From Kiritimatiellia bacterium (GTDB lineage Bacteria > Verrucomicrobiota > Kiritimatiellia > SLAD01), in the NCBI GenBank assembly GCA_007134175.1, contig SLLF01000132.1, positions 1 through 13,793 on the forward strand: 13,793 bases of DNA, in the 5' to 3' direction. A program made the position numbers and the translations under genes. Shown here in pieces: positions 3,342 through 7,349 of the stretch. Position 1 is the stretch's first letter; each line of letters starts with the position of its first letter. The notes beneath the pieces are model-generated. The model ran no database searches and had not been told where the DNA came from. It saw only the letters and a list, made by a program, of their open reading frames with translations.

Positions 3342-3365
3342 GCTGGCCCCAACGTGGCCAGCTAC
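3342..3365 (-). repeat. REP-like hairpin, variant A, copy 1
   Basis: Seven-base arms GCTGGCC (3342-3348) and GGCCAGC (3356-3362) flank a 7-base loop. On the minus strand the element begins with GTAG (3365-3362), the head tetranucleotide known from RAYT-mobilised REPs. The wider 38-bp block 3341-3378 recurs at 3475-3512 with two mismatches. Confidence 0.65.
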
Positions 3366-3397
3366 AGCAGACAGGGCACGAATCACACAAGGCTCCG

Positions 3398-3423
3398 CTG
3401 TAGCCGGGCGCGGTGAGCCCGGC
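3398..3423 (+). repeat. REP-like hairpin, variant B (same sequence as the repeats inside gcvP)
   Basis: The element reads CTGTAG, then arms GCCGGGC (3403-3409) and GCCCGGC (3417-3423) around the loop GCGGTGA. The GTAG head is at 3400-3403. All 26 bases are the exact reverse complement of the three copies at 5711-5808 in gcvP. Orientation is opposite to the flanking variant-A copies, giving an inverted REP arrangement like a bacterial interspersed mosaic element. Confidence 0.75.
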
Positions 3424-3475
3424 TGGGGACGGACAACATGGGAATGCAACAGACCAACCGCCCCGGCCCGAAACG

Positions 3476-3499
3476 GCTGGCCCCAGCGTGGCCAGCTAC
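3476..3499 (-). repeat. REP-like hairpin, variant A, copy 2
   Basis: Arms GCTGGCC (3476-3482) and GGCCAGC (3490-3496) surround the loop CCAGCGT, with the GTAG head on the minus strand at 3499-3496. Together with copy 1 it brackets the opposite-facing variant-B element. The AACGG just before the left arm is also found before the arms of the second and third gcvP copies. Confidence 0.65.
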
Positions 3500-3631: not shown

Positions 3632-3679
3632 GGGGAGAAAGGGAGAAAGGGGTCAGGGAGAAAGGGGAGAAAGGGGTCA
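3632..3679. repeat. Two 24-bp purine-rich tandem units ending in GGGGTCA
   Basis: Units at 3632-3655 and 3656-3679 are built of GGGAGAAAGG blocks and both end in AAAGGGGTCA. The second unit supplies the TGA stop of the transposase remnant (3679-3677). The array may mark the 3' end of the element that carried that gene; this is inference from position only. Confidence 0.6.
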
Positions 3680-4279
3680 GTCATTGTATATTGCTCTTTT
3701 CAGCAGGCGGGTTTTCTGTTCGTTCAGCACTCGATTGCCGAGTAATCTACGACGCTGCGCATTGATGAGTCGGCTGCAATGACCGCGGCTCCCCATCTTC
3801 AGGGCCTCACATAGCCAATCCAGTGGCACACTGGTTTGGGAGGCAATCAGCTCGGCCAGCATGACCTTGTCTTTATCGGCGGCTTTTCTTAACCGGAGCG
3901 CGTTCACATCGAGTCCTAACGTACGGCAGCCGCCCTCCAGAATTTTCCGGGCATGCGCCAATCCGTGATCGCGCCTCTGCGCCCCGGCATATCCGTCTGC
4001 CGGAGCCTGCTTGGCGGCACGCCCCCCGTCTTCAAGGAAACCGAGCATGCGTTCTTTGAACTGTTCTGAACCAAAATACCACCCTCGACGCAACGTCGCC
4101 TGCAACGTCAACCCCGGGAGTGACTCAACATCGACCAGTCCCGCCGACTCAGCCCCTTCCTGCACTACCCGGCGATCGAGTCGTTCGAGGTACTTTTTTC
4201 GCCCCTGCACGGAGTCGGGAAGTCCGCAGGCACCAAACACCCGATCCGCACCCTTTCTTGCACCAGCGGGTGTTTTACG
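3677..4279 (-). pseudogene. REP-associated tyrosine transposase (RAYT) remnant, C-terminal part only
   Basis: The frame is open from just below a TAG at 4282-4280 to the stop at 3677, about 200 codons; the only plausible start inside is a GTG at 4240. Counting from that GTG, the protein shows features I recognise from the C-terminal part of RAYT/IS200-like (Y1_Tnp) proteins: RKKYLERLDRR (14-24), RRGWYFGSEQF (51-61), then a DnaA-C-like helix-turn-helix stretch around SVPLDWLCEALKMGS (137-151). The N-terminal domain with the HUH motif and catalytic tyrosine is missing, and only ~95 bases separate this frame from gcvP, so it cannot be encoded here. I call it a 5'-truncated relic. RAYTs mobilise REP hairpins, and such hairpins lie immediately downstream. 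The functional assignment is fairly secure; whether any protein is made is not known. Confidence 0.7.
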
Positions 4280-4347: not shown

Positions 4348-4360
4348 GCAAGAACCAATT

Positions 4361-4367
4361 GGAAGGA
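4361..4367 (+). promoter_or_regulatory. Ribosome-binding site that decides the gcvP start
   Basis: GGAAGGA ends 9 bases before the TTG at 4377. The longer alternative (TTG at 4359) would place this Shine-Dalgarno inside the coding sequence and has none of its own, so 4377 is preferred. Confidence 0.6.
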
Positions 4368-4376
4368 CTGGATATT

Positions 4377-7349
4377 TTGACCACTGACCCGACATTACCG
4401 CCGTTTGGGCCGCGGCATATCGGACCCAGCGCGACCGAGCAAACAGAGATGTGCCGTACGCTTGGCGTGGCAGCGCCGGCCGAGTTGATCGACGAATGCC
4501 TGCCGCCTGCTATCCGCAACGAATCCCCGCTGGATTTGCCCGCCGCCTTGGATGAAGCGGAGCTGCTGCGCCATCTGCGCGCGATCAGCCGTTGTAACCG
4601 GCCTGGCCGGTCGTTTATCGGGCAAGGCTATTACGGTTGTGTCACACCGGCTGTGATCCAGCGCAATTGCTTCGAAAACCCGGGCTGGTACACCCCGTAT
4701 ACGCCGTACCAGGCGGAGATCGCCCAGGGGCGCCTGGAATCCCTGCTCAATTTTCAAACGATGGTGTCCGACCTGACCGGTATGGACCTAGCCAACGCCT
4801 CGCTGCTGGACGAAGCGACGGCAGCGGCGGAGGCGGTGACGTTGTGCTACCGCATGCAGGCCAGCCCGTCGCGTAGCCAACGCCACACGCTGCTTATTGC
4901 GGATCACTGTTTCCCTCATGTGATCGACGTGGTCCGTACCCGGGCGGAACCGCTGGGCATCCGTTGTCACACGGGATGCGTGGACGAGCTGCCGTGGAAT
5001 GGTGATGTGTTCGGGTTACTGTTACAGACGCCCGGCACCCAGGGTAACGTCATCGATTTACGGCGCTGGATCGATCACGCCCACAATGCGGGCGCGTTGG
5101 TGGCCGTCGGCAGCGACCTCCTGGCGTTGACGCAATTGACCCCGCCGGGGGAATGGGGTGCCGATGTCGTCTACGGCAGTGCCCAGCGCTTCGGCGTCCC
5201 GTTGGGATACGGCGGACCACACGCCGCGTTCTTTGCCACCCGCGAGAAATTCAAGCGGGCCGTACCCGGTCGCCTCGTCGGCGCGGCCCAGGACCGCTTA
5301 GGCGAGGTGGGCTACCGCCTGGCACTTCAGACGCGTGAACAACATATCCGCCGCGAAAAGGCTACCTCCAATATCTGTACCGCCCAGGCGTTGCTGGCCA
5401 ACATGGCCGCCTTCTATGCCATTTACCATGGGCCGACCGGGCTGCGGCAAATGGCCGCCCGCATTCATTCGCAGGCCGTGCAACTGGCCCGCGGCTTGCA
5501 ACAACTGGGCTATGCACTGGTGCACGACCATTTCTTCGACACGGTATGCGTCCGCACGGAGCAGGCCGAAACCATCCGCGCCGCAGCCATGCAGCGGGAA
5601 TACCATTTCCACTATGGAGCGCCACAGGCGGTACAGCTCTCGCTCGACGAAACCACCACCGATGCCGACCTGGCTGCAATTCTGGACTTGTTCACCGCCG
5701 CAACCGACCGGCCGGGCTCACCGCGCCCGGCTACAGCACCCAACGGGCCGGGCTCACCGCGCCCGGCTACAGCACCCAACGGGCCGGGCTCACCGCGCCC
5801 GGCTACAGTGGACGATCCGGCCACTACCGCGTTTGCCTGGCCTGCCGCGTTGGTGCGAAAGACACCTTTTCTGACACATCAAGTCTTTGAGTCGCATCAG
5901 ACCGAAACAAAGCTGATGCGCTACATGAAACAGCTTGAACGGAAAGATCTGGGGTTGGATACCGCCATGATCCCGCTGGGTTCCTGTACGATGAAATGTA
6001 ACCCGGCCCTCACCATGGCCGCGTTGTCGTGGCCCGAATTCAGCGGGTTGCATCCGTTTTTGCCCCGTGATTGCGCCGCCGGTTACCAACAGTTGATCGA
6101 CGATTTAGCCGGTTACATCGCGATCATGACCGGGCTGGATGCCGTATCGTTCCAGCCCAATTCCGGGGCCCAGGGGGAATATGCCGGTCTGCTGACGATT
6201 CGCGCGTGGCACCGGGCTCACGGTGAAACCGCTCGTGATGTGGCGCTGATTCCCGAATCCGCCCATGGAACCAACCCGGCTTCGGCGCAGATGGCCGGTC
6301 TGAAAGTGGTGCTGGTGCGCTGCACCGCAGACGGGGCGATTGATGCGGCTGACCTGCAGGCGAAACTGGACGCGCACGCAGGGCGGGTGGCCGCCTTCAT
6401 GGTGACCTATCCCTCCACCTTTGGCGTGTTTGAAGAGGGAATCAAGGAGCACTGTGCCGCTATCCATGCGCATGGCGGCCAGGTTTATATGGACGGCGCG
6501 AATCTCAACGCGCAAGTGGGGTTGACGTCGCCCGGCCTGCTGGGCGCGGATGTATGCCACCTGAATCTGCACAAGACCTTCGCCATTCCACATGGCGGCG
6601 GCGGGCCCGGAATGGGGCCCATCGCCGTGGCGCGTCATCTGGCGCCTTTCCTGCCCAGTCACCGTCTGAACGCGGAGGGAAAGAGTGGCGCAACAGCGGG
6701 AGCGGTCAGCGCCGCCCCGTGGGGCAGCGCCAGCCTGCTGTTGATCCCGTACGCCTATGTCCGCCTACTCGGGGCCGACGGCGTGACGGCCGCCACGCGT
6801 ACGGCCATCCTGAACGCCAACTATATCAAGCAGCGACTTCAAACACATTATCCGGTCCATTACGCCGGTCGCAACGGGCGCGTGGCGCATGAACTAATTT
6901 TTGACTGTCGCCCCTTCAAGGAATCGGCTGGCATCACGGAGATTGACGTAGCCAAGCGGTTGATGGATTACGGTTTTCATGCGCCCACCGTGGCTTGGCC
7001 CGTGCCGGGCACCTTGATGGTGGAGCCGACGGAAAGCGAGGCACTGGACGAATTGGACCGTTTTTGCGATGCGATGATCGCGATTCGCGGGGAAATCGAC
7101 GCGATCGCCGAGGGGCGCGCCGACCGCGCCGACAACGTGCTGCGCAATGCGCCGCACACGGCAGCCGAAGTGATCGCAACGGAGTGGAACCATACCTACT
7201 CGCGGGAGGCGGCGGTGTATCCTTTGCCTTTTGTGCGTGCCCATAAGTTCTGGCCGGCCTGTGCGCGTATCGACAACGTACAGGGCGATCGCCAGCTTGT
7301 CTGTACCTGCCCGCCGCTCAGCGCCTATGCCAAGGAGCCTGCGCCATGA
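4377..7349 (+). CDS. gcvP: Glycine dehydrogenase (aminomethyl-transferring), P-protein of the glycine cleavage system
   Basis: This 990-residue PLP enzyme decarboxylates glycine and passes the aminomethyl group to lipoyl-GcvH. It is the fused, two-halved type: the N-terminal half opens with PFGPRHIGPS and contains YYGCVTPAVIQRN and NPGWYTPYTPYQAEIAQGR; the C-terminal half starts at FLTHQVFESHQTETKLMRYM and has IPLGSCTMKCNP. The PLP lysine is K733 in NLHKTFAIPHGGGGPG. Length is ~30 residues above E. coli GcvP (957), about what the Pro-rich repeat insert in the linker between the halves (residues ~446-477) adds. The TTG start follows a good Shine-Dalgarno. It is first in an operon with a sensor kinase and bioD, overlapping the kinase by 4 bp (ATGA). 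gcvT and gcvH are not in the window, unlike the common gcvTHP order. Confidence 0.97.
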   Translation: MTTDPTLPPFGPRHIGPSATEQTEMCRTLGVAAPAELIDECLPPAIRNESPLDLPAALDEAELLRHLRAISRCNRPGRSFIGQGYYGCVTPAVIQRNCFENPGWYTPYTPYQAEIAQGRLESLLNFQTMVSDLTGMDLANASLLDEATAAAEAVTLCYRMQASPSRSQRHTLLIADHCFPHVIDVVRTRAEPLGIRCHTGCVDELPWNGDVFGLLLQTPGTQGNVIDLRRWIDHAHNAGALVAVGSDLLALTQLTPPGEWGADVVYGSAQRFGVPLGYGGPHAAFFATREKFKRAVPGRLVGAAQDRLGEVGYRLALQTREQHIRREKATSNICTAQALLANMAAFYAIYHGPTGLRQMAARIHSQAVQLARGLQQLGYALVHDHFFDTVCVRTEQAETIRAAAMQREYHFHYGAPQAVQLSLDETTTDADLAAILDLFTAATDRPGSPRPATAPNGPGSPRPATAPNGPGSPRPATVDDPATTAFAWPAALVRKTPFLTHQVFESHQTETKLMRYMKQLERKDLGLDTAMIPLGSCTMKCNPALTMAALSWPEFSGLHPFLPRDCAAGYQQLIDDLAGYIAIMTGLDAVSFQPNSGAQGEYAGLLTIRAWHRAHGETARDVALIPESAHGTNPASAQMAGLKVVLVRCTADGAIDAADLQAKLDAHAGRVAAFMVTYPSTFGVFEEGIKEHCAAIHAHGGQVYMDGANLNAQVGLTSPGLLGADVCHLNLHKTFAIPHGGGGPGMGPIAVARHLAPFLPSHRLNAEGKSGATAGAVSAAPWGSASLLLIPYAYVRLLGADGVTAATRTAILNANYIKQRLQTHYPVHYAGRNGRVAHELIFDCRPFKESAGITEIDVAKRLMDYGFHAPTVAWPVPGTLMVEPTESEALDELDRFCDAMIAIRGEIDAIAEGRADRADNVLRNAPHTAAEVIATEWNHTYSREAAVYPLPFVRAHKFWPACARIDNVQGDRQLVCTCPPLSAYAKEPAP
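5711..5808 (-). repeat. Three in-frame tandem REP-like units inside gcvP
   Basis: Hairpin cores at 5711-5731, 5747-5767 and 5783-5803 are identical (arms GCCGGGC and GCCCGGC, loop TCACCGC) with a 36-bp period, and each is followed by TACAG. On the minus strand each copy starts CTGTAG, matching the intergenic element at 3398-3423 over 26 bases. Because 36 is a multiple of 3 the reading frame survives, encoding PGSPRPATAPNG twice and then PGSPRPAT. The array sits in the linker between the two homologous halves of GcvP, away from the active site. Confidence 0.85.

Follow-up and report, generated by a model that had tools for sequence, protein, structure and literature searches.

In-frame tandem copies of a GTAG-headed REP element in the linker of glycine dehydrogenase (GcvP) from a Kiritimatiellia bacterium

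The gcvP locus and the array within it

The window analyzed here is the whole of a 13,793-nt contig (C82; SLLF01000132.1) of the Kiritimatiellia draft genome G000 (2,352,921 bases, 383 contigs, 76% complete). It holds gcvP, the gene for glycine dehydrogenase (the P-protein of the glycine cleavage system), and inside that gene lie three tandem copies of a hairpin whose counterparts are found between genes further upstream. Hairpins of this kind, repetitive extragenic palindromic (REP) elements, are thought to be moved by Y1 transposases (REP-associated tyrosine transposases, RAYTs). The gcvP open reading frame (ORF) has a TTG start and encodes 996 aa; its product was identified by Pfam (GDC-P at residues 19-445, GcvP2_C at 812-933), by NCBIfam TIGR00461 gcvP (score 1326 bits, cut-off 859) and by a fold match to 4lgl.

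Tandem Repeats Finder, run on the window, returned positions 5710-5808 with a period of 36, 2.8 copies and 100% matches. Three identical GTAG-headed hairpin cores are carried by gcvP, with two identical spacers between them. In the codon register the array was resolved into three 36-bp units (5700-5807), which encode the peptides ATDRPGSPRPAT, APNGPGSPRPAT and APNGPGSPRPAT. Units 2 and 3 were equal at 36/36 bases and units 1 and 2 at 33/36, with all 3 differences in the leader of unit 1; the initial annotation, in which the three units were perfect, held for the cores, the spacers and units 2 and 3, and failed for unit 1.

The core GTAGCCGGGCGCGGTGAGCCCGG was found four times in the window, at 3400-3422 (plus strand) and at 5712-5734, 5748-5770 and 5784-5806 (minus strand). 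In 200 dinucleotide shuffles of the window its mean count was 0.00, and four copies were reached in 0/200. Intergenic and gcvP copies were 97-100% complementary across 27-30 nt. An array of intergenic-type hairpins inside gcvP, matching the intergenic copy in reverse complement, had been annotated at the outset, and both parts of that claim were borne out. The array is in frame with gcvP, and the REP is free of stops on the strand that gcvP reads.

The insert occupies residues 452-483, between the two halves of GcvP. The Pfam GDC-P match stops at 445, and the subunit chains A and B of the solved P-protein 1wyt (Thermus thermophilus) were aligned to residues 27-423 and 516-909; Pfam boundary and chain alignment both place the insert in the linker, as annotated, at the point where the enzyme is divided into two subunits in other bacteria. 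In the AlphaFold model of GcvP (mean predicted local distance difference test score, pLDDT, of 78.6), pLDDT was below 50 at 452-476 and residues 449-495 were without helix or strand; the insert region is predicted to be disordered.

Table 1. Positions, strands and basis of assignment for features of the window
Feature	Position	Strand	Basis or remark
gcvP, glycine dehydrogenase	4359..7349	+	Pfam, NCBIfam, fold
36-bp unit 1	5700..5735	+	encodes ATDRPGSPRPAT; 12-nt leader with 3 base differences from units 2 and 3
36-bp unit 2	5736..5771	+	encodes APNGPGSPRPAT
36-bp unit 3	5772..5807	+	identical to unit 2
GTAG hairpin core, copy 1	5711..5734	-	genome pattern searches; 7/7 stem pairs
GTAG hairpin core, copy 2	5747..5770	-	genome pattern searches, stem check
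GTAG hairpin core, copy 3	5783..5806	-	genome pattern searches, stem check
Intergenic GTAG element, stem variant GCTGGCC/GGCCAGC	3342..3365	-	pattern search, stem check
Intergenic GTAG element, exact copy of gcvP core	3400..3423	+	core and pattern searches
Intergenic GTAG element, stem variant GCTGGCC/GGCCAGC	3476..3499	-	pattern search, stem check
C-terminal remnant of Y1 (HUH) transposase, terminal-inverted-repeat kind	3677..4240	-	similarity to L243 and L260
Two GGGGTCAG motifs	3649-3656, 3673-3680		3' end of remnant; fit GGGGWSAS motif

The GTAG family in the genome and the linkers of relatives

When at most 3 mismatches were allowed, the 24-nt core was matched at 27 sites of G000; 9 matches were exact, including 4 in the window, and the reversed-pattern control gave 0. 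A degenerate GTAG pattern gave 52 sites and its reversed control 1. With one site from the core search only, 53 sites on 27 contigs were examined. Stems were paired at 7/7 positions in 46 sites and at 6/7 in 7; 13 stem combinations were present, the commonest in 24/53, and fully paired stems included GCCGGGC/GCCCGGC, GCTGGCC/GGCCAGC, GCCGCCC/GGGCGGC, GCCGCGC/GCGCGGC and GACGCGC/GCGCGTC. Because the search pattern itself sets 3/7 stem pairs, it is the remaining 4 pairs, which change together, that speak for a conserved hairpin. The head was GTAG in 47/53 sites (GCAG in 2, then GTAA, GTAT, GAAG and GCTG), GTAG being demanded by the pattern with 2 or 3 mismatches permitted, and CT stood immediately 5' of the head in 36/53.

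Neighbor pairs within 150 bp were GTAG-outward in 16 cases (11 spaced 1-2 bp), GTAG-inward in 2 and head-to-tail in 2; among the 53 sites, both head-to-tail pairs are in gcvP. Features of the GTAG REP superfamily that were present are a GTAG end, a stem of about 6-9 bp that differs in sequence, many mainly intergenic copies, and inverted dimers. By its sequence the element is a member of a dispersed GTAG-headed REP family, and the genome search agreed with the initial annotation on this point.

Elements with GCTGGCC and GCCGGGC stems lie 34 bp apart both at 3342-3499 of the window and at C201:8505-8586 of G000, like a composite bacterial interspersed mosaic element (BIME). Several paired elements of G000 (e.g. 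C278:233-282) resemble one another in their outer flanks, which are close to TTTCATCCGCAACC on one side and A-rich on the other; given these flanks, the repeated unit may reach past the hairpins.

GcvP linkers of relatives were compared at 17 loci (L029-L045), taken from among the 28 relative genomes with a GcvP match; 16 of the 17 were readable and L045 could not be aligned there. The REP insert was absent from 16/16 readable linkers, that of the sole same-genus genome (G001) included, which marks the insert as lineage-specific. The element thus lies wholly within a conserved gene, keeps the frame, and is missing from homologues, as expected of an in-gene REP. Among the best 120 of 8000 scored homologues, the peptide PGSPRPA was found only in one protein, P0001. 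The span from T432 to R500 was 67 residues in the window GcvP, 55 in P0001, 42 in P0002 and P0003, and 39 as the median of 50 aligned GcvPs. The frame is kept and the protein lengthened, as had been claimed, by 25 residues relative to P0002 (whose linker is the same as that of G001) and by 28 relative to the aligned median. Linker lengths were 34-42 in 47/50 aligned rows, and many relatives' linkers are also Pro-, Ala- and Gly-rich. P0025 has a 64-residue linker stretch without the REP peptide.

P0001 (954 aa, longest contig 12,544 bases, 2 member sequences) starts at M31 of the window GcvP. The two proteins were identical at 954/966 aligned positions, the other 12 being one absent unit. A copy-number difference had been predicted, and this two-unit protein from the database agrees with the prediction, an assembly difference being another possible source of it.

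Origin of the array and its unit number

Very probably, a GTAG REP landed in frame in the gcvP linker, was expanded in tandem, and was tolerated there. In the proposed course, a GTAG-type REP, which is a non-autonomous hairpin, would have arrived in frame in the linker after the split from the examined genus-mate, moved by a Y1 (RAYT) transposase. A 36-bp stretch, made up of 12 nt of preceding gcvP sequence and the REP, would then have been duplicated; the new leader would have gained three substitutions and the unit would have been duplicated again, leaving two identical units behind one diverged. Slippage in replication, or recombination of direct copies, could shift the unit number further in steps of 12 residues. 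The transposase step and the duplication order are those we infer. The leader of unit 1 was equal to the spacer of units 2 and 3 at 9/12 bases, which 3/950 other codon-aligned gcvP 12-mers also reached, and the sequence 3' of unit 3 was equal to the spacer at 4/12; the leader match suggests that 12 nt of gcvP were duplicated with the REP, diverged, and were duplicated again. Insertion would be tolerated because 36 is a multiple of three, the read strand has no stop, and the linker joins halves that fold separately, and the array is probably near-neutral.

A candidate mobilizer of the family's REPs was found in a relative. The GTAG family is present in relatives, and in G007, of the same family, a Y1 transposase (164-residue open frame, C207:6209-6691; L256, L270) has GTAG elements at 6165-6188 and 6724-6747, one per side, at 20 and 32 bases from it. 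Matches to this transposase were obtained in 9/11 searched genomes, including G007 itself and G001. The initial annotation had joined the GTAG head to mobilization by a RAYT; the head is as claimed, and for the gcvP array we infer a RAYT origin from the family, no mobilizer having been identified in G000 itself.

Several observations weigh against insertion by a RAYT followed by tandem expansion. A homologue of the G007 REP-flanked transposase was not found in G000 (76% complete). Around the two Y1 proteins that G000 has, scans of 6-kb stretches revealed no GTAG hairpins, and GGGGTCAG-type inverted repeats accompany one of these proteins; Y1 proteins were present in 10/10 family relatives, among them G002, G005 and G006, which have no GTAG-pattern site. 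The 9/12 leader match is a single short comparison. P0001 lacks a named source; it could represent a population variant or a second assembly of the window's own source material, the latter being the adverse case. A linker with one unit would measure 43 residues, against 42 in P0002 and P0003, the two nearest other proteins, so that the first REP may have taken the place of linker sequence and not been added to it.

On this near-equal length is based the alternative that templated repair or gene conversion with a REP overwrote the linker sequence, without transposase insertion. This is distinctly unlikely, and the equal length may be a coincidence because linker length varies, as the spread across the aligned rows and the long REP-free stretch of P0025 illustrate. 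That a native GC-rich Pro/Gly linker came by chance to resemble an intergenic hairpin is next to impossible: the composition of many relatives' linkers would suit it, but the 24-mer had 9 exact genome matches with 0 for the control, and 4 matches were obtained in 0/200 window shuffles, by which chance resemblance is ruled out as far as sequence allows. Very improbable, too, is retention of the array by selection, whether for a useful longer linker or for an mRNA structure in gcvP. The frame is preserved across three units and REPs are hairpins, as such a role would have it, but the RNA fold of 5690-5830 was ordinary for its composition (z = -1.28; 26/200 shuffles at least as stable), which leaves a role in mRNA structure unsupported; moreover, the segment is predicted to be disordered and the insert is absent in the 16 relatives read.

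Insertion followed by tandem expansion bears also on unit number. It is a tentative reading, to which we give a little less than an even chance, that one REP insertion seeded a length-variable minisatellite in a core enzyme gene, with populations that vary in the number of 12-residue units. If true, REPs create protein length variation via tandem expansion after landing and not by repeated insertion. The difference between two and three units would then be natural, as we believe it to be, and not an effect of assembly. Somewhat unlikely is the converse, namely that the REP is truly in gcvP and that its copy number (3 here, 2 in P0001) arose in assembly. The window GcvP and P0001 are identical outside the array, as expected of two assemblies from one sample; P0001, besides lacking a named source, is marked like the window's own proteins, and G000 is a draft in 383 contigs. 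Against an assembly effect, a 108-bp array should fit within ordinary short reads, and the leader of unit 1 is distinct, therefore at least two units can be told apart.

Known systems, the upstream remnant and other REP sites

In the main text of Di Nocera et al. (2013; PMC3733652), GTAG and CGTC REPs are reported within ORFs of several species, the number of in-ORF GTAG cases being highest in Opitutus terrae, and intragenic REP clusters in Thauera and R. conorii encode 43-82 residues. In-gene palindromes that become protein segments are known from Rickettsia, as the initial annotation had it, but not from Rickettsia alone, GTAG REPs within genes having been published in that paper for several bacteria. 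The gcvP array is a real, well-supported new case of a phenomenon already reported in other bacteria. The main text of the same paper contains no word starting with glycine or gcv, and its supplements, which list all its intragenic REPs, may hold gcvP. A literature search covering few subscription journals returned no later paper evidently devoted to intragenic REPs.

As these systems are described in that text, the element shares with GTAG REPs, REPINs and BIMEs the GTAG head, the 7-bp stem and dispersed copies, here mostly intergenic, and with GTAG-17 of O. terrae the GTAG-outward dimers spaced 1-2 bp. It resembles the intragenic GTAG REPs in being in frame in a housekeeping gene and clustered within an ORF, and differs from them in its target, gcvP, and in that a protein with one fewer unit exists. 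Rickettsia palindromic elements (RPEs), as described there, are likewise palindromes read in frame, in genes whose products are probably functional; that paper places RPE-4 and RPE-6 in the CGTC superfamily (PMC3733652), whereas the gcvP element is GTAG, and the two are set apart by description. Palindromic amphipathic repeat coding elements of Mollicutes and others, described as intragenic, palindromic and horizontally distributed (PMC2996958), are likened by description only. The gcvP case is a well-controlled example of a REP turned protein, with a donor family, two unit numbers, and 16 relatives whose linkers lack the insert. It agrees with the suggestion in PMC3733652 that such insertions may be neutral if situated in a flexible linker, and suggests that tandem expansion can follow REP insertion; understanding of REPs and of the glycine cleavage system is unchanged by it.

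The transposase remnant of Table 1 lies directly upstream of gcvP, between gcvP and the intergenic REPs. It was similar to the part of L243 (G004:C193) that follows the Y1 domain (32% identity over 160 aa, E = 4e-14) and to L260 (29% over 167 aa). It had no match in Pfam or NCBIfam, and no catalytic Y1 domain was found in it, as a terminal-inverted-repeat tyrosine transposase (TIRYT) would have. The GGGGWSAS motif at its 3' end is a terminal-repeat motif published in PMC3733652; inverted copies of the motif flank the transposases on L243 and L107, that on L243 standing between GGGGTCAG and CTGACCCC copies. The remnant with its GGGGTCAG motifs is like the TIRtron/TIRYT system described there, and differs from it in having no catalytic half and in being separate from the gcvP array. 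It is probably not the mobilizer of the GTAG elements, resembling as it does the C-terminal part of a terminal-inverted-repeat transposase.

Sites with coding sequence on both sides were sought by a home-made codon-usage screen with fixed thresholds, which overlooks short or atypical genes. It flagged 2/53 sites of G000, the middle gcvP copy and C357:4739-4762. One of the three gcvP copies was thus flagged, and the score of the remaining two is probably diluted by neighboring copies. Seven other long REP-holding ORFs were scanned; 5 had Pfam matches, in every case confined to one side of the REP, and 2 had no match. At C357:4739-4920 (L027, L189) a REP joins a gamma-glutamyltransferase fragment (PF01019, ORF residues 1-53, profile 144-196), which is the sole PF01019 match in G000, to the ORF of an outer-membrane efflux protein, the two forming a single open frame. 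The junction is either a rearrangement at the REP site or a chimeric contig, and was not counted as an in-gene REP. The REP at C358:293-316 (L013, C358:1-390) lies inside an ORF whose final stretch, at the contig edge, covers the later portion (profile 87-132) of a magnesium-chelatase domain; the earlier portion is missing there.

For relatives, the screen flagged 0/14 sites in G001, 0/23 in G004 and 2/48 in G007 (both two-mismatch sites); 15 loci (15 sites) of the other searched genomes gave 7 flagged rows at 5 sites. As further in-gene REPs the flagged sites of relatives were rejected: they are 2-mismatch matches in long coding frames with 3-6/7 stem pairs, and were read as chance. The least certain of them is L237 (G007:C210), with 6/7 pairs and a GTAG head.

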